Origin: Xestospongia bergquistia
Taxonomy: Eukaryota; Porifera; Demospongiae; Haplosclerida; Petrosiidae
Assembly: GCA_963965975.1 (NCBI GenBank)
Contig: OZ014411.1
Location: 1,721,001-1,785,000, forward strand
Length of the DNA stretch: 64,000 bases
Reading direction: 5' to 3'
Both the position numbers and the translations under genes were made by a program. Under the pieces are notes generated by a model, which saw only the letters and a program-made list of their open reading frames with translations, did no database searches and was not told the origin of the DNA. Shown here piece after piece: positions 16,960-35,143 of the stretch; within the stretch, counting starts at the first letter, position 1; every line of letters begins with the position of its first letter.

Positions 16960-17041
16960 ATGGTAGATGTAACGTAAGAATTATGCGACTATGAAAAGAG
17001 GAGACTAGTAAATATTAAAAAGAATATATATCATGACTATC
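16960..17041 (+). pseudogene. PRDM9-like exon 1 relic (copy 0)
   Basis: Homologous to exon 1 of Z1 (17,581-17,686), with the same leader (GTCTGAGTTGTTCAAAATGG) but with a stop (TAA) at codon 6 and several substitutions; [10 protein letters not shown] and NIKKNI are still readable. The rest of the gene is gone, and a cadherin-like fragment follows. Confidence 0.8.
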
Positions 17042-17112
17042 ATTATTATAAATTATTAAACACAAATTAATGAAATATTAAACACATACACATATTATAG
17101 AAGTGATATTAT

Positions 17113-17330
17113 AGCAGTTCTTATATAATTAAAGTAGGTGTAAATTGATTCTAGCTAGACTTTTCAAGTCTTACTAATTCTAGGGAGATGCTACAAGTAA
17201 AACAGTTCAGTTAACTGAAGGTACTACATCAATGATAGAGATTGTTGTTACTGTTGAAGAAGGTCACTCAACTAAAACTTACACAATATCTATACAATGT
17301 TTATCATCTAGTGATGCTTGCCTCTCTTAA
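17113..17330 (+). pseudogene. Cadherin-like terminal exon, copy 0
   Basis: After an acceptor (TTCTAG) it reads GDATSKTVQLTEGTTSMIEI and ends HSTKTYTISIQCLSSSD before a stop at 17,328-17,330. The pattern (T-V-x-L-x-x-G, I-x-I-x-V-T-x-E-D-G-x-x-T-K-T-Y-T) is that of the cadherin-like beta-sandwich domain. The family has six copies here, one after each PRDM9-like unit or relic. Confidence 0.6.
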
Positions 17331-17479
17331 ATAAAAATAAAAATAAAAGTATAGTATAACAAGTATAGTATATAATAAAAAAAAATTAAAAAAAAATGTT
17401 ATAAAGTGTAGTATATAGTATAGGTAAAAGTATAGTATAAGTATAGTATTTAATTTAAAAATAATTATTATTATTTTTG

Positions 17480-17580
17480 GTAAGAACCAATAAAATTTTA
17501 GTAGGAGGGACTAGTATTTTTAACGGAAATAGTGATCTGTTATCTTGTTTATCAACTAGACTAAGTCTGAGTTGTTCAAA
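17480..17580 (+). promoter_or_regulatory. Compact promoter/leader of PRDM9-like Z1
   Basis: About 100 bases upstream of the ATG are almost identical in front of Z1, Z2, Z4 and the exon-1 relic at 32,719 (blocks TTGGTAAGAACCAA, GGAGGGACTAGTATTTTTAA and CGGAAATAGTGATC). No TATA box is obvious. Conservation across copies is partly due to recent duplication. Confidence 0.45.
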
Positions 17581-20281
17581 ATGGCAGATGTAATGCAAGA
17601 ATTATGTGACTATGAGAAGAGAAGACTAGAGAATATTAAAAAAAATATTGAAATCATGAAAAGTTTAGGTAACAAACTATTACAAGGTAAATAAAAGTGA
17701 TAAATATTGTGTGTAGGTTTAGATGTTAAGTCCCAAAAGAAGAGTAGAGCTGGAAAAAAAAGGAGAAGAAGGAGACGATATAGTAATAGTAGTAATAGTA
17801 GCAGTGATAGTGGAGATGAATGGACACCTGCTATAGAGACTTGTGTGATGAAGAAAAAAACAAATGATGTCACAAAAGGTAATAAATATGTAAATTAAGA
17901 ATGGATTAATTTTGGTGTTTAATTTTAGTAGTTGAGAATGTAGTGAAAGAATCTCTGTGTAATATAAGAGAACATGTGGTAAGTATTTGATGTAAATGTA
18001 ATGTTTGACTGTCCCTATCAATGTTAGGATCACCAACATACAAAAGTCTTGAAGCAGCAAAAAGCACAGCGGAAGAAATGTTACAAACCTGTAAAGGGGG
18101 AGGAGCCTTCATTTGAGAGCCTTGATTGCAAGTTGTCTAATGAGTTTTTTGAGTTATTTGGAGGTGATGATAATGAAGAATATAAAGACTTTGAAGGATT
18201 TGATATTGAAGATGTGTAAGTTAGATTATATCAGTATTGATGATGTTTTCTTAATACAGTGGTGATTTACCTCAGTATCCAGTTAGTGAACGATATCCTA
18301 AGAGATTAAGTCATCAAAAAGAATACAGAGAAGATGAACTTTCTGATGAAGATGAATATCTCTGTAAGTTCAGTATCAATATGGTTACTTCTACAACTTT
18401 TGTTACTAGTTTGTGATGACTGTGAGGAATTTCATCATGGTGACTGTCCTGTTCATGGACCATTACTAACTCTAGATCCTTCTAGCGGTCATGATGAAGC
18501 ATCTCTACAATACACTACTGTATTTGTTCCATCTGAATTAACTGTTAAACCTTCTAAGATAGCCAATGCTGGTTTGGGTGTTTTTGCTACACAGTTTATA
18601 CCTCGTAGAGTTAGGTTTGGTCCTTATGAAGGAAGGAGAGTGTTAAAAGAAGAGCTCACTGAAGGAGAAGATACTAGCTACATGTGGGAGGTACTGTAAT
18701 AGAATAATAAAAGTATTAACTATTTTAATTCATTCAGGTAAAGCGCATTGGAGAGAGGTCATATTATGTTGATGGTCAATCAGATAATCAAAGTAATTGG
18801 TTACGATTTGTTAACTGCGCTCGCAATGTAGATGAACAGAATTTAGTTGCTTTTCAATATCATGGTAACATCTATTATCGTTCATTCAAGCATATTTATC
18901 CTGGTAGTGAACTCTATGTATGGTATGGTGAACAATATGCAAGAGAACTTGGGATTACAGCTACTTTTGAAGAAAGTAAAGTAATTCTTTTGACAGAAAT
19001 AAAATGTATTATCTATTTTTAGATGATTGTCAACTTTATAATTGCAAAAATTGTGGAAGTAGTTTTGTTTTGAAAGGTAATTTTGATTTGCATCTTCGAC
19101 ATAATCCTAATTGTCTTGCTGCTAATCCTCAATGTTTTACTTGTCAAAAATGTCAAGAAAGTTTTTGTGAATTGTTTCAGTTACAAGACCACATTCGTAA
19201 ACATGAGCAACTTGATGTAAAAGGAACAAATCATAAGAAAGAAGTCATTTCCAATGATAAACTGCTAATTGATAATCCAGATAATATGTGTGATCATTGT
19301 GGAAAGAAATTTTCTTGTCAGTCATCATTGAGAACTCATCTTCATGGTAAATCTTACCAATGTCAGTACTGTGGAAAAGGATTTTATCAAAACAGTAATC
19401 TTAAAATTCATCTTCGTATTCACACTGGTGATAAACCTTACCAATGTCAGTACTGTGGAAAAGAATTTAGTTATAACAATAGTTTCCAAAGACATCTTCA
19501 TATACACACTGTAAACGAACCTTACCAATGTCAGTATTGTGGAAAAGGATTTAGTACGAATAGTCATCTCAAAATTCATCTTCATATACACACTGGTAAT
19601 AAACCTTACCAATGTCAGTACTGTGGAATAGGATTTAGTTGTAATGGTAGTCTCCAAACTCATCTTTGTATACACACTGGTGATAAACCTTACCAATGTC
19701 AGTACTGTGGAAAAGCATTTAGTTGTAATAGCAATCTCAAAAGACATTTTCATATACACACTGGTAATAAACCTCACCAATGTCAGTACTGTGGAATAGG
19801 ATTTAGTCGTAATTGTAATCTCCAAATTCATCTTCGTATACATACTGGTGATAAACCTTACCAATGTCAGTACTGTGAAAAAGGATTTAGTACGAATAGT
19901 GATCTCCGAAGACATATTCGTATACACACTGGTGATAAACCTTACCAATGTCAGTACTCTGGAAAAGCATTTAGTTGTAATGGCAACCTCAAAAAACATA
20001 TTCGTATACACACTGGTGATAAACCTTACCAATGTCAGTATTGTGGAAAAGGATTTAGTCAGAATAGTAATCTTCAAAGTCACCTTCGAATACACACTGG
20101 TGATAAACCTTACCAATGTCAGTACTGTGGAAAAGCATTTAGTTGTAATAGCAATCTCAAAAAACATGTTCGTATACACACTGGTGATAAACCTCATCAA
20201 TGTCAGTATTGTGGAAAAGGATTTAGTAAGAATAGTGATTTCCAAAGACATCTTCATATACACACTGGGTATAAACCTTAG
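17581..20281 (+). CDS. PRDM9-like: PRDM9-like PR/SET and C2H2 zinc-finger protein Z1 (intact)
   Basis: Eight exons with GT/AG introns: 17,581-17,686, 17,717-17,878, 17,929-17,978, 18,028-18,215, 18,260-18,363, 18,410-18,690, 18,738-18,975, 19,023-20,281; 2,388 bases, 795 residues. Order: coiled start ([18 protein letters not shown]), poly-Arg/Ser stretch, acidic linker, zinc knuckle C205-C208-C216-H219, PR/SET about 230-370 ([40 protein letters not shown]), three irregular fingers, then 11 fingers of 28 residues at 488-795. Vertebrate PRDM9 trimethylates H3K4/K36 and directs meiotic breaks; PR/SET and knuckle match PRDM7/9 better than any other PRDM I know. No KRAB domain is seen. Finger 8 has Ser for its second Cys. 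This copy has no disabling lesion. Confidence 0.88.
19355..20278 (+). repeat. 84-bp coding minisatellite: 11 C2H2 fingers of Z1
   Basis: Eleven exact-length units encode fingers with near-constant backbone ([11 protein letters not shown], then N, L, H, IHTGDKP). Residues at helix positions -1, 2, 3, 6 are, in order: QSNI, YNSR, THSI, CGST, CSNR, RCNI, TSDR, CGNK, QSNS, CSNK, KSDR. Differences are concentrated there and at the x in HxxIH. Confidence 0.95.
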
Positions 20282-20431
20282 TACTGTTGAAAAGAATTTA
20301 GTCAGAATTATTGTTGCTATGTATTTTTCTAAAGTAATTAACTATTTTTGATAATAATTATTCATTATAAGTCACCATAGTAACAACACTAGAGAAACAA
20401 CGGACATTGCAGATCTAGAGAAGTTACAATA

Positions 20432-20753
20432 GTTCCAGAGTGGTTAGTACCAAAGTTTTAGAGCACAGTAACAGAATGAAGTGTCACTGTAGCTACAGGA
20501 GTAAGTGAAGTCAAGTTAACATCTCTAACCAGTGATAGCAGTTCTTATATAATTAAAGTAGGTGTAAATTGTTTCTAGCTAGACATTTCAAGACTTACCA
20601 ATTCTAGGGAGATGCTACAAGTAAAACAGTTCAGTTAACTGAAGGTACTACATCAATGATAGAGATTGTTGTCACTGCTGAAGATGGTCACTCAACTAAA
20701 CTTACACAATATCTATACAATGTTTATCATCTAGTGATGCTTGCCTCTCTTAA
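20432..20753 (+). pseudogene. Cadherin-like terminal exons, copy 1
   Basis: Two exon-like parts are joined by an intron (GTAGGT...TTCTAG): the first ends SLTSDSSSYIIK, the second starts GDATSKTV and ends at TAA 20,751-20,753. In-frame stops in the first part (TAG, TGA) and a one-base loss in the STKTYT segment show decay. Confidence 0.6.
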
Positions 20754-20861
20754 ATAAAAATAAAAATAAAAGTATAGTATAACAAGTATAGTATATACTA
20801 AAAAATAAAAAAAATAAAAATAAATGTTATAAAGTGTAGTATATAGTGTAGGTAAAAGTAT

Positions 20862-21537
20862 AGCCAATGTCAGTACTGTGGAAAAGCGTTTAGTTGTAAA
20901 TAGCAATCTCAAAAGACATTTTCGTATACACACAGGTAATAAACCTTACCAATGTCAGTACTGTGGAATAGGATTTAGTCAGAATGGTAATCTTCAAAGT
21001 CATCTTCGAATACACACTAGTGATAAACCTTACCAATGTCAGTACTGTGAAAAAGCATTTAGCTGTAATGGCAATCTCCAAACTCATCTTTGTACACACA
21101 CTGGTGATAAACCTTACCAATGTCTGTACTGTGGAAAAGGATTTAGTACGAATAGTTATCTCCGAAGCCATATTCGTATACACACTGGTGATAAACCTTA
21201 CCAATGTCAGTACTGTGGAAAAGCATTTAGTTGTAATAGCAATCTCAAAAGACATTTTCATATACACACTGGTAATAAACCTCACCAATGTCAGTACTGT
21301 GGAATAGGATTTAGTCAGAATGGTAATCTTCAAAGTCATCTTCGAATACACACTGGTGATAAACCTTACCAATGTCAGTACTGTGAAAAAGCATTTAGCT
21401 GTAATGGCAATCTCAAAAGACATTTTCGTATACACACTGGTGATAAACCACCAATGTCAGTACTGTGGAAAAGGATGTAGTACGAATAGTGATCTCCAAA
21501 GACATCTTTGTATACACATTGGTGATAAACGTTAGTA
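20862..21537 (+). pseudogene. PRDM9-like finger-only copy Z1b
   Basis: Upstream sequence normally about 150 bases before exon 1 is fused directly to zinc fingers, so exons 1-7 and the start of exon 8 are deleted. Eight 84-bp fingers follow. The first has a one-base insertion (TTGTAAATAGC), and between fingers 7 and 8 two bases are lost (GATAAACCACCAATG), shifting the frame. No start codon or promoter suits it. It has helix sets such as QGNS, CGNT, TSYS and CSNR that also appear in or resemble Z1, so it may still serve as donor in gene conversion. Confidence 0.85.
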
Positions 21538-21703
21538 CTGTTAAAAATAATTTAGTCAGAATTATTGTTGCCAACTTATCTTTGTATTTGTCTAAAGTAA
21601 TTAACTATTTTTGATAATAATTATTCATTGTCACTTTATTAAGTAACCATAGTAACAACACTAGAGAAACAATGGACTTTGCAGATCTAGAGAAGTTAAA
21701 GTA

Positions 21704-22025
21704 GTTCCAGGGTGGTTAGTCCCAAAGTTTCAGAGTACAGTAACAGAATGAACTGTCGCTGTAGCTAGTGTAGGAGTGAAGTGAAGTTAACATCTCTAAC
21801 CAGTGATAGTAGTTCTTATACCATTAAAGTAGGTGTAAATTGTTTCTAGCTAGACTTTTCAAGTCTTACTAATTCTAGGGAGATGCTACAAGTAAAACAG
21901 TTCAGTTAACTGAAGGTACTACATCAATGATAGAGATTGTTGTCACTGCTGAAGATGGTCACTCAACTAAAACTTACACAATATCTATACAATGTTTATC
22001 ATCTAGTGATGCTTGCCTCTCTTAA
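21704..22025 (+). pseudogene. Cadherin-like terminal exons, copy 2
   Basis: As copy 1, with intact GDATSK...TYTISIQ second exon ending at TAA 22,023-22,025. The upstream part contains a frame-breaking change. Confidence 0.6.
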
Positions 22026-22266
22026 ATAAAAATAAAAGTAAAAGTATAGTATAACAAGTATAGTATAGACTAAAAAATTAAAAAAAGTAAAAAAAATGTT
22101 ATAAATTATAGTATATAGTATAGGTAAAAGTATAGTATTTAATTTAAAAATAATTATTATTTTTGGTAAGAACCAATCAAATTTTAGTAGGAGGGACTAG
22201 TATTTTTAACGGAAATAGTGATCTTTTATCTTGTTTATCAACTAGAGTAAGTCTGAGTTGTTCAAA

Positions 22267-24009
22267 ATGGCAGATGTAATGCAAGAATTATGTGACTATG
22301 AGAAGAGAAGACTAGAGAATATTAAAAAAAATATTGAAATCATGAAAAGTTTAGGTAACAAACTATTACAAGGTAAATAAAAGTGATAAATATTGTGTGT
22401 AGGTTTAGATGTTAAGTCCCAAAAGAAGAGTAGAGCTGGAAAAAAAAGGAGAAGAAGGAGAGGATATAGTAATTGTAGTAATAGTAGCAGTGATAGTGGA
22501 GATGAATGGACACCTGCTATAGAGACTTGTGTGATGAAGAAAAAAACAAATGATGTCACAAAAGGTAATAAATATGTAAATTAAGAATGGATTAATTTTG
22601 GTGTTTAATTTTAGTAGTTGAGAATGCAGTGAAAGGTTCTCTGTGTAATATAACAGAACATGTGGTAAGTATTTGATGTAAATGTAATGTTTGACTGTCC
22701 CTATCAATGTTAGGATCACCAACATGTAAAAGTCTTGAAGCAGCAAAAAGCACAGCGGAAGAAATATTACAAACCTGTAAAGGGGGAGGAGCCTTCATTT
22801 GAGAGCCTTGATTGCAAGTTGTCTAATGATTTTTTTGAGTTATTTGGAGATGATGATAATGAAGAATATAAAGACTTTGAAGGATTTGATATTGAAGATG
22901 TGTAAGTTAGATTATATCAGTATTGATGATGTTTTCTTAATACAGTGGTGATGTACCTCGGTGTCCAGTTAGTGAACGATATCCTAAGAGATTAAGTCAT
23001 CAAAAAGAATACAGAGAAGATGAACCTTCTGATGAAGATGAATATCTCTGTAAGTTCAGTATCAATATGGTTACTTCTACAACTTTTGTTACTAGTTTGT
23101 GATGACTGTGAGGAATTTCATCATGGTGACTGTCCTGTTCATGGACCCTTACTAACTTCAGATCTTCGACATAATCCTAATTGTCTTGCTGCTAATCCTC
23201 GATGTTTTACTTGTCAAAATTGTCAAGAAAGTTTTTGTGAATTGTATCAGTTACAAGACCACATTCGTAAACATGAGCAACTTGATATAAAAGGAACAAA
23301 TCATAAGAAAGAACTAGTTTCCAATGATAAACTGCTAATTGATAATCCAGATAACGTGTGTGATCATTGTGGAAAGAAATTTTCTTGTCAGTCATCATTG
23401 AGAACTCATCTTCGTGGTAAATCTTACCAATGTCAGTACTGTGGAAAAGGATTTTATCAAAACAGTAATCTTAAAATTCATCTTCGTATTCACACTGGTG
23501 ATAAACCTTACCAATGTCAGTACTGTGGAAAAGGATTTAGTTATAACAATAGTTTCCAAAGTCATCTTCGTATACACACTGTAAATAAACCTTACCAATG
23601 TCAGTATTGTGGAAAAGGATTTAGTACGAATAGTCATCTCAAAATTCATCTTCGTATGCACACTGGTAATAAACCTCACAAATGTCAGTTCTGTGGAGTA
23701 GGATTTAGTCATAATTGTAATCTCCAAACTCATCTTCGTATACACACTGGTGATAAACCTTACCAATGTCAGTACTGTGAAAAAAGATTTAGTACGAATA
23801 GTGATCTCCGAAGACATATTCGTATACACACTGGTGATAAACCTTACCGTTGTCAGTACTGTGGAAAAGCATTTAGTTGTAATAGCAATCTCAAAAGACA
23901 TTTTCGTATACACACTGGTGATAAACCTTACCAATGTCAGTACTGTGGAAAAGGATTTAATCAGAATGGTATTCTTCAAAGTCATCTTCGAATACACATT
24001 GGTGATTAA
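22267..24009 (+). CDS. PRDM9-like: PRDM9-like Z2, lacking the PR/SET domain
   Basis: Exons 22,267-22,372, 22,403-22,564, 22,615-22,664, 22,714-22,901, 22,946-23,049 and 23,096-24,009 give 1,524 bases (507 residues), all in frame. Exon 6 begins like Z1 through the zinc knuckle ([16 protein letters not shown]) and then jumps, in frame, to the first-finger region of exon 8 (SDLRHNPN), removing the whole PR/SET domain and two introns. Seven 28-residue fingers follow from residue 314; an A-to-T change makes a stop (TAA, 24,007-24,009) in the last linker, cutting off an eighth finger that remains readable to 24,096. It could make a DNA-binding protein without methyltransferase, or be a pseudogene; transcription data would decide. 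Confidence 0.75.
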
Positions 24010-24266
24010 CCTTACCAATGTCAGTACTGTGGAAAAGGATTTAGTCAGAATAGTGATCTCCAAAGACATCTTTGTATACACACTGGTGATAAACCTTAAT
24101 ACTGTTAAAAATATTTTAGTCAGAATTATTGTTGCAACTTATCTTTGTATTTGTCTAAAATAATTAACTATTTTTGATAATAATTATTCATTGTCACTTT
24201 ATTAAGTTACCATAGTAACAACACTAGAGAAACAACGGATATTGCAGATCTAGAGAAGTTAAAATA

Positions 24267-24588
24267 GTTCCAGGATGGTTAGTCCCAAAGTTTCAGAGCA
24301 CAGTAACAAAATGAACTGTCACTGTAGCTAGTGTAGGAGTGAAATAAAGTTAACATCTCTAACCAGTGATAGTAGTTCTTATACCATTAAAGTAGGTGTA
24401 AATTGTTTCTAGCTAGACTTTTCAAGACTTACTAATTCTAGGGAGATGCTACAAGTGAAACAGTTCAGTTAACTGAAGGTACTACATCAATGATAGAGAT
24501 TGTTGTCACTGTTGAAGATGGTCACTCAACTAAAACTTACACAATATCTATACAATGTTTATCACTTAATGATTCTTGCCTTTCTTAA
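24267..24588 (+). pseudogene. Cadherin-like terminal exons, copy 3
   Basis: The most divergent copy at its end (ends ...SLNDSCLS before TAA 24,586-24,588). Unlike the others it is not followed by the PRDM9-like promoter but by the acidic frame at 24,672. Confidence 0.55.
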
Positions 24589-24671
24589 CAAACTGAAATA
24601 AAAGTAAAAACAAAAGAGGACAAAGTATAAAGACAATAGAATTATCTCAAGATGTAGAGGATGACATTCAA

Positions 24672-24944
24672 AATGATAGATAATGTAGTAGATAATGAAG
24701 AATTTAGAGAACTGTCATCAGATTTATCACCTGAACATGATGACAAACAACTCATGGAGGATCATAGTGATAATCTTCCTGAAAATGTAGTCAGTGTAGT
24801 TGAGGAGAGTCAAGAAGAAAAAAGATGATGTTTGTTTGCTAAAAAAAACAAAATGAAGATACTGCTATGTCTTCTAAAAAAAGATATTTAGCTCGTAAGA
24901 GAGCAAAACTATTACAACTTACAATTTCAACAGATGCTGATTAA
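24672..24944 (+). pseudogene. Acidic/basic coding-like segment, unknown
   Basis: Reading starts near MIDNVVDNEEFRELSSDLS, continues acidic to VVEESQEEKR, then needs a frame change to give NEDTAMSSKKRYLARKRAKL and a stop at 24,942-24,944. This could be a last exon of a charged nuclear protein or chance. No family is recognised. Confidence 0.25.
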
Positions 24945-25249
24945 ACCTCTTAATTTTTAACTGAAACTTAATTAGGCAGTGCCTATAGGTCCTGTAACCG
25001 GACACGTAATTCAAACTATTAGTTCCGGTTATTGAAACCACACCCAATACCGTGGGCGTACATATATTAATAAAATTAAGAATGATAATAATAATAATAA
25101 TAACATAGTTGGTATAGAATTTATAGATAATAAATATGAATAGATGAATATAGATAACAAAAAAATATAGTAATAAATAATCAAGTATAAAATTACCAAT
25201 AAAACCAAAACCTTGTCTTTGTAGAAGACTTTCAATGGACACAATTGAA

Positions 25250-26030
25250 ATGATATCAGGTTAAATAAGAGTCACATATTAGCATTATGACTCATCATTG
25301 ATTGGCTTTAATCATAGAGCACAATACTAAACAGAATTACTTCTTAAAATGTCAATAACTACTTGAACATTGATCAATGTGTCATGAGAAAAGGACTTGT
25401 GACAACTTACAATTCATACATTCTAATACAAACACAAATTATATATTGTTTCTGGTTGAACTTCAACATCTTTGTTAATAAGGAGACCATTCCACTATAT
25501 CCAGTCTAGAGATTTAAAGTGTAATGTTTGTGATTTAAACTATCATAACTATATAGTATAGTTTTTAAATAATCCAAAGTAAAGTATATGGGTGATTAAG
25601 ACCATCTTGATTGCTATCAGTCCCATGTCTAGTCTATATTGATATAATTATTAACATTGTAATATGTTATATTTTGTGTGCTATTTGTTATCATAGTCAG
25701 TATAGTCATATTTACTTGTTCCAAAGTGAAGTTGGCTAATACCACCTTGATCAATAGTTCTATATCCAGGCTATAGAACATTGACATTGTACAATAAGAC
25801 AACTATTAAATTAAAGATACTTTTTGACAAACTATATAAATAAAATTAAATTAATAGTGCACTTGTAATAACAAGAGAGTGTAACAAATCCACTACTCAT
25901 ATATGATCCAGAGTGAAGTATAGCTGCTCTTTTTCAAATAACATTATAGCTATACTCTCATTAATATAATCCCTTTTTATTAGATTCTATGTCTTCTAAA
26001 GCTGTATAAACATCATCTTCATTCAAATTT
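25250..26030. other. AT-rich 3' flank of receptor A
   Basis: Apart from the tail-like reading near 25,965-26,035 nothing coding is seen. The block recurs at 33,060-33,850. Confidence 0.35.
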
Positions 26031-27200
26031 CCAGGATGTGACTTGGATGTTATTTAGTTGCATAATGTCTGGACAGGTACTTCATATGGTGTACTTTCCA
26101 TAGAAATGCATGGAGTAGCTAAATCATATAAGTCTGAGATAAACACTAAAAAGGATGGACTGCTAAAAATTTTTAGTAATGGCATTATTATAGCAAATAT
26201 TACTATGGTAACATTTACCATAACAACAATTACATAACAGCAACATGCAATATGTATCACTATAGCAATAATTAACATACTAATTATTGATATTTTTAAA
26301 TAAATCTAAAATAGTTTTTTAAAGTAAATTACACATATTCACTTTAAATGCAAGAGTATCATCTAAATAATAATGATATTAGAATATTGAAGTTTTAGAC
26401 AAATGTTAACGAAGTATCTCTTATAGGATTTGTTATAGCAAACATTTGCTCACCATTATTTTGAGTATTTACTGTCATTTTGTCTGTACAATGATGTGAT
26501 CTCCAAACGAAAAGTGTAACCAATATTATTATGGTCATAATAAGTATTACAAAAATAAGAGACACACCCACAGTAACCCCTATTATTTTTCCTTTATTGT
26601 TAGTGTCTTTATCATTAGGTTGACCTGATGGTGCAGGTGTAGAAGAGTGTATAACAGTTTCAGTATTTGTATTATCAGACTGGTTAGTTGATATAGAACC
26701 TGTTGTATATTATGAAAAAGTCAATAAAGTTTTTTTGTATCAAGTATAACAACAAACAAGTGACATGTGATGACCTATTGACCAAACTAGGAAATATTAA
26801 TTTATTTGTTATTCTAAATAAAAAATTATTACTTATCAGCACTTTCAAATTAATAATCGACACCAGAACATCATCAAGTCACATAATGTATGAACAAATA
26901 AATTTATATGTAACTCACTTATACAGTGTGGCACATATTCACTCCATTGTCCTAATAAACAAATTATACTGAATACATCATTTAGTTTGTAGTCAGCACT
27001 ATACAGAAAAATTACTGTAGTACCATTAATATAACAAGCATGAACAGGACTACGTGATCCATTATCTGGTATACCTGGGTCACTTCTATCAGGTACACAT
27101 AAGGGAACAGATTTACTCCATTGTCCAGATGATAGACAAGATATAGATTATTCTCATTGTAGTGTATAGCCATTTATACAGTTGAATGTAAACTCTAGTC
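26030..27200 (-). CDS. CCP (sushi)-domain membrane receptor, 3' part (copy A)
   Basis: On the minus strand a CCP module reads CVPDRSDPGIPDNGSRS, then LGQWSEYVPHC (about 27,100-26,920). The next exon (26,699-26,395) gives a Ser/Thr-rich stalk (TVIHSSTPAPSGQPNDKDT), a membrane segment (IIGVTVGVSLIFVILIMTII) and a short tail to stop 26,395-26,397. Further on, an exon-like part at 26,131-26,054 has Tyr motifs (YDLATP, YEVPVQ) and about 26,035-25,965 has DDVYTALEDI. CCP modules bind ligands outside the cell; Tyr motifs would be signalling sites. The 5' part is missing here: the upstream CCP (27,130-27,300) has stops and the sequence then enters Z3. It is probably a truncated gene. Confidence 0.55.
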
Positions 27201-27381
27201 CTTCATGCAGTTAACAGTGGTGGGCTTAATGGCAATCTTCTAATATTAGTAGGAGTACCAGAATTATTACATAAATTCAAACAGGTTAGTACATTAATAG
27301 TCCATGATTTGTTATCTTGATATTATTACCTTTTTGATAATAGGATGATTACAGTGATATATATAATAAAATTGTCTTACA

Positions 27382-28959
27382 AGTTTTTTTGAGTTATTTG
27401 GAGATGATAATAATGAAGAATATGAAGACTTTGAAGGATTTGATATTGAAGATGTGTCCAGTTATAGTGAACGATATTCTAAGAAATTAAGTCATCAAAA
27501 AGAATATAAAGAAGATGAACTTTCTGATGAAGATGAATATCTCTGTAAGTTCAGTATCAATATGGTTACTTCTACAACCTTTGTTACTAGTTTGTGAGGA
27601 TTTTGAGGAATTTGGTGACTGTCCTGTTCATGGACCCTTACTAACTCTAGATCCTTCTAGTGGTCATGATGAAGCATCTTTACAATACACTACCTTGTTT
27701 GTTCCATCTGAATTAACTGTTAAACCTTCTAAGATAGCCAATGCTGGCCTGGGTATTTTTGCTACACAATTTATACCTCGTGGAGTCAGGTTTGGTCCTT
27801 ATGAAGGAAGAAGAGCTCACTGAAGGAGAAGATACTAGCTACATGTGGGAGGTACTGTACTAAAATCATTAAAAAAGTATTATTTATTTTAATTTATTCA
27901 GGTGAAGCATGTTGGAGAGAGGTCATATTATATTGATGGTCAATCAGATAATCAAAGTAATTGGTTACGATTTGTTAACTGTGCTCGCAATGTAGATGAA
28001 CAGAATTTAATAGCTTTTCAGTATCATGGTAATATCTATTATCGCTCATTCAAGCATATCTATCCTGGTAGTGAACTCTATGTATGGTATGGTGAACAAT
28101 ATGCAAGAGAACTTGGGATTACAGCTAGTTTTGAAGAAAGTAAGGTAATTCTTTTGACAGAAATAAAATGTATTATCTATTTTTAGATGATTGTCAACTT
28201 TATAATTGCAAAAACTGTGGAAGTAGTTTTGTTTTGAAAGGTAATTTTGATTTGCATCTTCGACATAATCCTAATTGTCTTGCTGCTAATCCTCAATGTT
28301 TTACTTGTCAAAAATGTCAATAAAGTTTTTGTGAATTGCATCAGTTACAAGACCACATTCGTAAACATGAGCAACTTGATGTAAAAGCAAGGAATCATAA
28401 GAAAGAACTCATTTCCAATGATGAACTGCTAGTTGGGAATGCAGATAATATGTGTGATTATTGTGGAAAGAAGTTTTTTTGTCAGTCGTCATTGAGGACT
28501 CATCTTCATATACACACTGGTGATAATCCTTACCAATGTCATGATCAGTACTGTGGAAAAGGATTTAATCAAAGCTGTAAACTCCAAACTCATTTTTGTA
28601 TACACACTGGTGTTAAACCTTACCAATGTCAGTACTGTGGAAAAGGATTTAGCCAGAAAGGTAGTCTCCAAATTCATCTTCGTATACATACTGGTGATAA
28701 ACCTTACCAATGTCAGCACTGTGGAAAAGGATTTAATGAAAGCTGTAGACTCCAAAATCATCTTTGTATACACACTGATGATAAACCTTACCAATGTCAG
28801 TACTGTGGAAAAGCATTTAGTTGTAATAGCAATCTCAAAAAACATATTCGTATACACACTAGTAATAAACCTTACCAATGTCAGTACTGTGGAAAAGGAT
28901 TTAGTCGGAATAGTGATTTCCAAAGACACCTTCGTATACACACTGGTGATAAACCTTAG
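27382..28959 (+). pseudogene. PRDM9-like Z3, 5'-truncated and broken
   Basis: It begins inside exon 4 at a junction with receptor DNA (about 27,382). Exons 4 and 5 are fused without their intron (EDVSSYSERY). The zinc knuckle has lost its second Cys and two His (CEDFEEFGDC). A 14-base deletion in exon 6 after FGPYEGR shifts the frame (TGA follows). Exon 7 (27,902-28,138) is intact with [12 protein letters not shown] and VWYGEQY. Exon 8 has a GAA-to-TAA stop at 28,321-28,323. Five to six fingers follow; one has two extra residues between its Cys pair (CHDQYC), and helix sets (QCKT, QGSI, ECRN) differ most from the other copies. The gene is dead, but the sequence may represent an older finger repertoire. 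Confidence 0.85.
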
Positions 28960-29127
28960 TACTGTTGAAAAGAATTTAGTCAGAATTATTGTTGCCAACT
29001 TATCTTTGTATTTGTCTAAAGTAATTAACTATTTTTGATAATAATTATTCATTATCACTTTATTCAGTCACCATAGTAACAACACTAAAGAAACAACGGA
29101 CATTGCAGATCTAGAGAAGTTAAAATA

Positions 29128-29450
29128 GTTCCAGGGTGGTTAGTACCAAAGTTTCAGAGCACAGTAGCAGAATGAAGTGTCACTGTAGCTACTGGAGTAA
29201 GTGAAGTCAAGTTAACATCTCTAACCAGTGATAGTAGTTCTTATACCATAAAAGTAGGTGTAAATTGTTTCTAGCTAGACTTCTCAAGTCTTACTAATTC
29301 TAGGGAGATGCTACAAGTAAAACAGTTCAGTTAACTGAAGGTACTACATCATTGATAGAGATTGTTGTCACTGCTGAAGATGGTCTCTCAACTAAAACTT
29401 ACACAATATCTATACAATGTTTATCATCTAGTGATGCTTGCCTCTCTTAA
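29128..29450 (+). pseudogene. Cadherin-like terminal exons, copy 4
   Basis: The cleanest upstream part: VPGWLVPKFQSTV, then a TGA, then SVTVATGVSEVKL and SLTSDSSSYTIK, intron, GDATSKTV and stop at 29,448-29,450. The shared TGA suggests this exon was already disabled, or starts later, before the duplications. Confidence 0.6.
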
Positions 29451-29703
29451 ATAAAAATAAAAATAAAAGTATAGTATAACAAGTATAGTATATACTATAA
29501 AATTAAAAAAGCTAAAAAATGTTATAAAGTATAGTATATAGTATTGGTAAAAGTATAGTATAAGTATAGTATTTAATTTAAAAATAATTGCTATTATTTT
29601 TGGTAAGAACCAACTAAATTTTAGTAGGAGGGACTAGTATTTTTAACGGAAATAGTGATCTGTTATCTTGTTTATCAACTAGACTAAGTCTGAGTTGTTC
29701 AAA

Positions 29704-31988
29704 ATGGCAGATGTAATGCATGAACTTTGTGACTATGAGAAGAGAAGACTAGAGAATATTAAAAAAAATATTGAAATCATGAAAAGTTTAGGTAACAAAC
29801 TATTACAAGGTAAATAAAAGTGATAAATGTTGTGTGTAGGCTTAGATGTTAAGTCCCAAAAGAAGAGTAGAGTTAGAAAAAAAAGGAGAAGAAGGAGACG
29901 ATATAGTAATTGTAGTAATAGTAGCAGTGATAGTGGAGATGAATGGATACCTGCTCTAGAGACTTGTGTGATGAAGAAAAAAACAAATGATGTCACAAAA
30001 GGTAATAAATATGTAAATTAAGAATGGATTAATTTTGGTGTTTAATTTTAGTAGTTGAGAATGCAGTGAAAGGTTCTCTGTGTAATATAAGAGAACATGT
30101 GGTAAGTATTTGATGTAACTATAATGTTTGATTGTCCCTATCAATGTTAGGATCACCAACATACAAAAGTCTTGAAGCAGCAAAAAGCACAGCAGAAAGA
30201 ATATTACAAACCTGTAAAGGGGGAAGAGCCTTCATTTGAGAGCCTTGATTGCAAGTTGTCTAATGATTTTTTTGAGTTATTTGGAGATGATAATAATGAA
30301 GAATATAAAGACTTTGAAGGATTTGATATTGAAGATGTGTAAGTTAGATTATACCAGTATTGCTGATGTTTTTTTCTTAATACAGTGGTGATGTACCTCA
30401 AAGTCCAGTTAGTAAACAATATCCTAAGAGATTAAGTCATCAAAAAGAATACAGAGAAGATGAACTATCTGATGAAGATGAATATCTCTGTAAGTTCAGT
30501 ATTAATATGGTTACTTCTACAACCTTTGTTACTTGTTTGTGGAGACTGTGAGGAATTTCATCATGGTGACTGTCCTGTTCATGGACCCTTACTAACTCTA
30601 GATCCTTCTAGTGGTCATGATGAAGCATCTCTACAGTACACTACTGTATTTGTTCCATCTGAATTAACTGTTAAACCTTCTAAGATAGCCAATGCTGGTC
30701 TGGGTGTTTTTGCTACACAGTTTATACCTCGTAGAGTTAGGTTTGGTCCTTATGAAGGAAGGAGAGTGTTAAAAGAAGAGCTCACAGAAGGAGAAGATAC
30801 TAGCTACATGTGGGAGGTACTTTAATAGAATAATAAAAAGTATTAACTATTTTAATTCATTCAGGCAAAGCGCATTGGAGAGAAGTCATATTATGTTGAT
30901 GGTCAATCAGATAATCAAAGTAATTGGTTACGATTTGTTAACTGTGCTCGCAATGTAGATGAACAGAATTTAATTGCTTTTCAGTATCATGGTAACATCT
31001 ATTATCGTTCATTCAAGCATATCTATCCTGGTAATGAACTCTATGTATGGTTTGGTGAACAATATGCAAGAGAACTTGGGATTACAGCTAGTTTTGAAGA
31101 AAGTAAGGTAATTCTTTTGACAGAAATAAAATGTATTATCTATTTTTAGATGATTGTCAACTTTATAATTGCAAAAACTGTGGAAGTAGTTTTGTTTTGA
31201 AAGGTAATTTTGATTTGCATCTTCGACATAATCCTAATTGTCTTGCTGCTAATCCTCAATGTTTTACATGTCAAAAATGTCAAGAAAGTTTTTGTGAATT
31301 GTATCAGTTACAAGACCACATTCGTAATCATGAGCAACTTGATGTAAAAGGAACAAATCATAAGAAAGAACTCATTTCCAATGATAAACTGCTAATTGAT
31401 AATCCAGATAATATGTGTAATCATTGTGGAAAGAAATTTTCTTGTCAGTCATCATTGAGAACTCATCTTCGTGGTAAATCTTACCAATGTCAGTACTGTG
31501 AAAAAGGATTTTATCAAAACAGTAATCTTAAAATTCATCTTCGTATTCACACTGGTGATAAACCTTACCAATGTCAGTACTGTGGAAAAGGATTTAGTTA
31601 TAACAATAGTTTCCAAAGACATCTTCGTATACACAATGTAAATAAACCTTACCAATGTCAGTATTGTGGAAAAGGATTTAGTACGAATAGTCATCTCAAA
31701 ATTCATCTTCGTATGCACACTGGTAATAAACCTCACCAATGTCAGTACTGTGGAAAAGGATTTAGTCATAATGGTCATCTCCAAACTCATCTTTGTATAC
31801 ACACTGGTGATAAACCTTACCAATGTCAGTACTGTGGAAAAGCATTTAGTTGTAATAGCAATCTCAAAAGACATATTCGTATACACACTGGTGATAAACC
31901 TTACCAATGTCAGTACTGTGGAAAAGGATTTAGTCAGAATGGTAATCTTCAAAGACATCTTTGTATACACACTGGTGATAAACCTTAG
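29704..31988 (+). CDS. PRDM9-like: PRDM9-like Z4, near-complete with splice and active-site changes
   Basis: Exons 29,704-29,809, 29,840-30,001, 30,052-30,101, 30,151-30,338, 30,386-30,489, 30,536-30,816, 30,865-31,102 and 31,150-31,988 give 655 residues with six regular fingers (488-655; helix sets QSNI, YNSR, THSI, HGHT, CSNR, QGNR). Two oddities. The acceptor before exon 6 is ACTTG at 30,531-30,535, not ACTAG; the next AG (30,543-30,544) would restore splicing in frame but remove three residues including the first knuckle Cys. The SET end reads VWFGEQY (TTT at 31,051) where Z1 and Z3 have VWYGEQY; this Tyr aligns with the one reported as essential in mammalian PRDM9 (Tyr357). It may be expressed but catalytically weak. 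Confidence 0.8.
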
Positions 31989-32156
31989 TACTGTTAAAAA
32001 TAATTTAGTCAGAATTATTGTTGCCAACTTATCTTTGTATTTGTCTAAAGTAATTAACTATTTTTGATAATAATTATTCATTGTCACTTTATTAAGTAAC
32101 CATAGTAACAACACTAGAGAAACAATGGACTTTGCAGATCTAGAGAAGTTAAAGTA

Positions 32157-32478
32157 GTTCCAGGGTGGTTAGTCCCAAAGTTTCAGAGCACAGTAACAGA
32201 ATGAACTGTCGCTGTAGCTAGTGTAGGAGTGAAGTGAAGTTAACATCTCTAACCAGTGATAGTAGTTCTTATACCATTAAAGTAGGTGTAAATTGTTTCT
32301 AGCTAGACTTTTCAAGTCTTACTAATTCTAGGGAGATGCTACAAGTAAAACAGTTCAGTTAACTGAAGGTACTACATCAATGATAGAGATTGTTGTCACT
32401 GCTGAAGATGGTCACTCAACTAAAACTTACACAATATCTATACAATGTTTATCATCTAGTGATGCTTGCCTCTCTTAA
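32157..32478 (+). pseudogene. Cadherin-like terminal exons, copy 5
   Basis: Nearly identical to copy 2; stop at 32,476-32,478. It is followed by the PRDM9-like promoter and the truncated exon 1. Confidence 0.6.
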
Positions 32479-32718
32479 ATAAAAATAAAAATAAAAGTAT
32501 AGTATAACAAGTATAGTATATAATAAAAAATTAAAAAAGTAAAAAAATGTTATAAATTATAGTATATAGTATAGGTAAAAGTATAGTATTTAATTTAAAA
32601 ATAATTATTATTTTTGGTAAGAACCAATCAAATTTTAGTAGGAGGGACTAGTATTTTTAACGGAAATAGTGATCTGTTATCTTGTTTATCAACTAGACTA
32701 AGTCTGAATTGTTCAAAA

Positions 32719-32826
32719 TGGCAGATGTAATGCAAGAATTATGTGACTATGAGAAGAGAAGACTAGAGAATATTAAAAAAAAATATTGAAATCATGAAAA
32801 GTTTAGGTAAAAAACTATTACAAACT
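32719..32826 (+). pseudogene. PRDM9-like exon 1 relic (last copy)
   Basis: Exon 1 with its promoter, identical to Z1 in most bases, has one extra A in the poly-A run (frameshift after ENIK) and is cut at about 32,822 by a junction with receptor DNA. The junction has short homology (ACAAACTATTA) on both sides. Confidence 0.9.
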
Positions 32827-35143
32827 ATTAGTTCCGGTTATTGAAACCACACCCAATACCGTGGGCGTACATATATTAATAAAATTAAGAATGATAATAA
32901 TAATAATAATAACATAGTTGGTATAGAATCTATAGATAATAAATATGAATAGATGAATATAGATAACCAAAAAACATAGTAATCAATAATCAAGTATAAA
33001 ATTACCAATAAAACCAAAAACTTGTCTTTGTAGAAGACTTTCAATGGACACAATTGAAATGATATCAGGTTAAACAAGAGTCACATATTAACATTATGAC
33101 TCATCATTGATTGGCTTTAATCATAGAGCACAATACTAAACAGAAATTACTTCTTAAAATGTCAATAACTACTTGAGCATTGATCAATGTGTCATTAGAA
33201 AAGGACTTGTGACAACTTACAATTCATACATTCTAATACAAACACAAATTATATATTGTTTCTGGTTGAACTTCAACATCTTTGTTAATAAGGAGACCAT
33301 TCCACTATATCCAGTCTAGAGATTCAAAGTGTAATGTTTGTGATTTAAACTATCATAACTATATAGTATAGTTTTAAATAATCCAAAGTAAAGTATATGG
33401 GTGATTAAGACCATCTTGATTGATATCAGTCCCATGTCTAGTCTATATTGATATAATTATTAACATTGTAATATGTTACATTTTGTGTGCTATATGTTAT
33501 TTTTAAACTATCATAGTCAGTATAGTCATATTTACTTGTTCCAAAGTGAAGTTGGCTAATACCACCTTGATCAATAGTTCTATATCCAGGCTATAGAACA
33601 TTGACATTGTACAATAAGACAACTATTAAATTAAAGATACTTTTTGACAAACTATATAAATAAAACTAAATTAATAGTGCACTTGTAATAACAAGAGAGT
33701 GCAACAAATCCACTACTCATATATGATCCAGAGTGAAGTATAGCTGCTCTCTTTCAATAACATTATAGCTATACTCTCATTAATATAATCCCTTTTTATT
33801 AGATTCTATGTCTTCTAAAGCTGTATAAACATCATCTTCATTCAAATTTCCAGGATGTGACTTGGATGTTATTTAGTTGCATAATGTCTGGACAGGTACT
33901 TCATATGGTGTACTTTCCATAGAAATGTATGGAGTAGCTAAATCATATAAGTCTGAGATAAACACTAAAAAGGATGGACTGCTAAAAATTTTTAGTAATG
34001 GCATTATTATAGCAAATATTACTATGGTAACATTTACCATAACAACAATTACATAACAGCAACATGCAATATGTATCACTATAGCAATAATTAACATACT
34101 AATTATTGATATTTTTAGATAAATCTAAAATAGTTTTTTAAAGTAAATTACACATATTCACTTTAAATGCAAGAGTATCATCTAAATAATAATGATATTA
34201 AAATATTGAAGTTTTAGACAAATGTTAACAAAGTATCTCTTATAGGATTTGTTATAGCAAACATTTGCTCACCATTATTTTGAGTATTTACTGTCATTTT
34301 GTCTGTACAATGATGTGATCTCCAAACGAAAAGTGTAACCAATATTATTATGATAGTATTACAAAAATAAGAGACACACCCACATTAACCCCATTATTTT
34401 TCCTTTATTGTTAGTGTCTTTATCATTAGGTTGACCTGATGGTGCAGGTGTAGAAGAGGATATAACAATTTCAGTATTTGTATTATCAGACTGGTTAGTT
34501 GATATAGAACCTGTAGTATATTATGGAAAGGTTAATAAAGTTTTTTTGTATCAAGTATAACAACAAACAAGTGACATTAGATGACCAATTGACCAAACTA
34601 GGAAACATTAATTTATTTTTTAGTCTAAATAAAAAATTATTACTTATCAACACTTTCAAATTAATAATCAACACCAGAACGTCATCAAGTCACATAATGT
34701 ATGAACAAATAAATTTATATGTAACTCACTTATACAGTGTAGCACATTTTCACTCCATTGTCCTAACAAACAAATTATACTGGATACATCATTTAGTTTG
34801 TACTATACAGAAAAATCACTGTAGTACCATTAATATAACGAGCATGAACAGGACTATGTGATCCATGATCTGGTATACCTGGCTCACTACTGTCAGGAAC
34901 ACATAAGGGAACAGATTTTCTCCATTGTCCAGATGATAGACAAAATATAGATTATTCTCATTGTAGTGTATAGCCAATTATACAGTTAGTTAACAGTGGT
35001 GGGCTTAATGGTAATCTTCTACTATTAGTAGGAATACCAGAATTATTACATAAATTCAAACAGGTTAGTACATTAATAGTCCATGTTTTGTTATCTTGAT
35101 ATTATTACCTTTTTGATAATAGAATGATTACAATGATATATAA
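32824..35143. repeat. Duplicated receptor segment A'
   Basis: Direct copy of 25,012-27,362. The left edge is fused to a PRDM9-like exon 1; on the right the receptor sequence continues without a break, so this is probably the original location and A the duplicate. Confidence 0.85.

Follow-up and report, generated by a model that had tools for sequence, protein, structure and literature searches.

A young, lineage-specific family of PRDM9-like genes in the sponge Xestospongia bergquistia

PRDM9, which usually occurs as one or a few copies, picks recombination sites in many vertebrates, where its finger array binds DNA and nearby histone H3 is methylated at K4 and K36. What, then, is a whole block of such genes doing in a sponge? 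The block occupies positions 16,960 to 32,826 of a 64,000-nucleotide stretch of the Xestospongia bergquistia genome (contig OZ014411.1, positions 1,721,001 to 1,785,000; hereafter the window), and an earlier note on this DNA had described it as a tandem array of PRDM9-like units and relics on one strand, a description that we confirmed as an observation. Judged from sequence, this block belongs to an expansion of the sponge PRDM9 orthologue that is young and lineage-specific, with 67 places in the genome carrying PR sequence, at least 25 apparently intact genes, and relics in addition.

Domains in this family follow the order of PRDM9, with a KRAB-related segment, SSXRD, a zinc knuckle, PR/SET, and an array of C2H2 fingers. 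The knuckle lies immediately 5′ of PR/SET, where the earlier note had placed it, and aligned with the knuckles of other PRDM9s. KRAB and SSXRD calls rest on profile comparison: SSXRD matched vertebrate PRDM9 with an hhalign probability of 94.2 (27 columns) and invertebrate PRDM9 with one of 97.2, and the KRAB-related helix plus EWTP aligned with the PRDM9 KRAB region at 97.0–98.4, the first part of KRAB-A being missing. Equivalents of Tyr276, Tyr341, and Tyr357 were tyrosine in 31, 36, and 35, respectively, of 36 PR domains. These positions were located on 4ijd, whose construct we take to start at residue 195, a numbering consistent with all three falling on tyrosine. Many C7 copies, including those at C7:842,603 and C7:846,348, lack exon 3, and the family thus contains two gene structures.

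Structure matches and trees also place the family with PRDM9, as the earlier reading had proposed. In a phmmer search of the PDB, PRDM9 chains were the best matches, 7–9 orders of magnitude before PRDM14, and PRDM11 ranked low (7.2e-17); we take chain 4c1q to be from mouse, and the species names of the Em and scpid records are likewise our assumption. In a first PR tree of 53 rows, 15 rows from this genome formed one clade (100/97), which was sister to Amphimedon (99/91) within a sponge group (94/99). Duplication among these 15 sampled copies came after the lineage had parted from Amphimedon. The outgroup of this tree was not monophyletic, because MECOM and PRDM4, both on long branches, were placed amid the PRDM9 rows. 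A second tree of 49 rows, from which MECOM, PRDM4, PRDM5, and Trichonephila were left out, set 46 PRDM9/11 rows on one side of a branch (94/94) versus PRDM1/12/14, and placed sponges and cnidarians weakly together (87/50) and separate from bilaterians (98/92). PRDM11 fell within vertebrate PRDM9 in both trees, from which one row of Sycon type, lacking a matching knuckle, had been excluded.

We modelled 49 copies, comprising 47 of the 67 PR places and two PR-less copies, and called a copy intact if it had an ATG, GT-AG junctions throughout, PR/SET, and at least five finger matches, with the linker finger counted. By these criteria 25 of the 49 were intact, a share that is overstated because the better matches were fetched first; where exon 3 was lacking, the model used whichever GT-AG pair gave the longest frame, a choice that biases towards open models. 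In this reading the family spread through tandem and inverted duplication, together with finger duplication inside the arrays. A trend to independent loss of PR became less likely once two more PR-reduced loci, both on C7, proved to be broken. Several finger arrays are followed, a few hundred bases on, by a fragment of the first PR exon (about amino acids 58–79; C7:849,230; C7:854,668; C7:4,325,200; C7:4,330,628; C14:3,524,353), which apparently travelled with the unit as it duplicated.

Within the family, PR/SET is constrained and the DNA-contact residues are diversifying. First, the ratio of nonsynonymous to synonymous substitution (dN/dS) in PR was 0.443 over 630 pairs of 36 domains (median dS 0.113), 0.315 within C1 (15 pairs), 0.46 within C7 (406 pairs), and 0.42 where both copies were intact (253 pairs); these 36 copies are those of the 49 with standard-length PR exons, and two of the 13 dropped were counted intact. 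Second, in 362 fingers built on an 84-nt unit, diversity among the 28 positions peaked at the four contact positions −1, 2, 3, and 6, which carried 33% of it versus 14% expected. Third, the corresponding diversity ratio (piN/piS) in 25 intact arrays (215 fingers) was 2.19 at contacts (bootstrap 2.00–2.51) and 0.61 elsewhere. The P statistic of Baker and others had a median of 0.309 (range 0.238–0.466) in 42 family arrays, the seven of 49 with fewer than four captured fingers being excluded; capture took the first regular run alone, which shortened some arrays (to three and four fingers in two intact genes). The highest values belonged to two genes with recent block duplications, the intact C7_898129p (0.466; 99.7% identity over 336 nt) and C7_4321340p, which is not intact (0.410; 98–99% over 588 nt).

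What might these genes do? Identity as PRDM9 and the molecular mode of action predicted from it are, taken jointly, probable. Each intact member would be a sequence-addressed histone H3K4/K36 methyltransferase, whose array would bind its own DNA motif, whose PR/SET would mark nearby nucleosomes, and whose KRAB-related and SSXRD segments would recruit partners. The role served by this activity is a more tentative matter. We rank as most likely, at somewhat under even odds, that at least some members retain an ancestral germline function in marking meiotic break sites, with the family providing a standing pool of addresses. Baker and others (PMC5519329) make the case for recombination being directed by complete KRAB-SSXRD-SET genes, which favours a meiotic role here.

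Several results weigh against this picture. An approximately unbiased (AU) test on the first tree rejected uniting the 46 PRDM9 rows without PRDM11 (p 0.015), and Pfam gave no KRAB or SSXRD match at E 1 with a slightly misjoined query. PR dN/dS rose to 0.608 in 84 close pairs (0.63 in the 38 with both copies intact), so recent copies are constrained only loosely. An unrelated PR-less array at C1:2.10 Mb had piN/piS of 1.93 at contacts and 0.49 elsewhere, and its P of 0.341 exceeded the family median; a second control gave 0.294. By this statistic, compared with these two control arrays only, family arrays are not among the fastest-evolving of the genome, and human PRDM9 is listed with a P of 0.687 (PMC5519329). 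Since the control array scored alike, the contact-residue statistic was rejected as a demonstration of hotspot function; rapid array evolution is a correlate of such function, not of family membership. ZCWPW1 and ZCWPW2 are readers coupled to PRDM9 in vertebrates. No ZCWPW1/2-like partner was found, as neither of two zf-CW matches shared a contig with any of five PWWP matches, in an exon-level search that could miss one.

The control array belongs to a separate polydactyl C2H2 cluster without PR matches (C1:2,090,000–2,111,000), whose tested array varies at contact sites much as the PRDM9 family does. Upstream of one array in this cluster, inspection by eye suggests a remnant resembling reverse transcriptase. 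This cluster was rejected as a PR-less PRDM9 branch, since by eye no PRDM9 exon was present in 1.4 kb translated upstream of one array.

A role in genome defence is the next candidate, a possibility to be taken seriously at roughly one chance in three; copy number, the ZCWPW-like gene not found, and the unexceptional contact statistic favour it. A pure DNA-binding repressor would need neither PR/SET nor its tyrosines, however, and most of the 36 standard-length PR domains retain both; in addition, three of four examined PR-reduced loci are broken. Unlikely, in our judgment, is that the amplification is mostly non-functional, with a duplication hotspot multiplying a PRDM9 gene of which one or a few copies work and the rest drift to loss. 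The 24 of 49 modelled copies that are not strictly intact, even though mostly better matches were modelled, the many relics and exon fragments, the close-pair dN/dS of 0.61, and a longest C1 arm match of 98.4% over 4.8 kb fit such drift, but 25 copies are intact at a median PR dS of about 0.11, and neither the dN/dS of 0.42 among intact pairs nor a piN/piS of 2.2 specific to contacts is expected if nearly all copies are neutral. That the genes belong to a different PRDM subfamily, or to a PR zinc-finger group specific to sponges, is very improbable: the 94/94 branch was not starred and the tree with long-branched MECOM and PRDM4 failed to keep the group together (AU p 0.015), but another PRDM class was rejected on the PDB margin over PRDM14 and the trees, and the knuckle, SSXRD, and KRAB-related segments are held in common with PRDM9.

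The family resembles vertebrate PRDM9 (Meisetz) in domain order, the three catalytic tyrosine positions, array turnover, and excess contact-residue variation. It differs in its 67 PR places, a KRAB-A-related part without the N-terminal FSKEEW-like segment, contact variation not above that of another local finger array, and the ZCWPW-like reader not found. Closest in the trees, and similar in architecture where full length, are PRDM9-like genes of Halichondria, Ephydatia, Dysidea, and Amphimedon, the last with one labelled record among 109 matches. Dysidea also has several, in nine 90%-identity clusters with a longest contig that is one of 65 Mb; those of Dysidea avara are variously named PRDM10-like, PRDM14-like, set-17-like, and ZNF431-like, and some are possibly isoforms. 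Expansion of sponge PRDM9 may thus be recurrent and misnamed. Unlike tetrapod KRAB zinc-finger protein clusters, most modelled copies here keep PR/SET, and their KRAB-related helix is of an ancestral type that PMC8835667 describes, for human PRDM9, as inactive both in silencing and in binding TRIM28/KAP1.

Sponge PRDM9 itself is known; what is new is a family of this size. Full-length PRDM9 in sponges is stated in PMC13186367, which refers to Oliver 2009 and to Ponting 2011 for it; the word sponge is absent from the main text of Oliver 2009. More than one gene per species is known, with up to four in part of Baker Table 1 (PMC5519329). Among the matches listed, titles and abstract openings of the open-licence literature contained no multi-copy sponge PRDM9 or expansion of this size. 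Its intact copies, at least 25 of them and each with a different address, make this genome a direct test of whether early-animal hotspot choice already used PRDM9, and of whether a PRDM9 gene can itself give rise to large defence families of finger proteins.

All parts of the block lie on the plus strand. It opens with the exon-1 relic of a lost unit, a KRAB-A-related exon with a stop (16,960–17,028). In the splice model that follows, the segment homologous to the PRDM9 KRAB region (17,581–17,668) and one aligning with SDSDEEWTP of other PRDM9s (17,717–17,878) precede segments at 17,929–17,978 and 18,028–18,215, the SSXRD match (18,260–18,363), and segments at 18,410–18,690, 18,738–18,975, and 19,023–20,281. 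Further parts of the block lie at 20,833–21,480, 22,267–24,009 (with a deletion common to the broken sibling C1_1679807m), 27,385–28,959, and 29,704–31,988 (splice model), and a frameshifted exon-1 relic (32,718–32,823) closes the series. A signal peptide or membrane start of the PR-exon open reading frame was ruled out, the stretch being out-of-frame exon plus intron. Searches for tRNA, Rfam, and NCBIfam features gave no match. Between PRDM9 units lies a sushi-repeat-like gene fragment on the minus strand (26,395–27,147; PF00084, 24.1 bits on 26,848–27,147), and sushi-like sequence recurs past the last unit (about 33,873–34,861) and in the opposite-strand C1 cluster.
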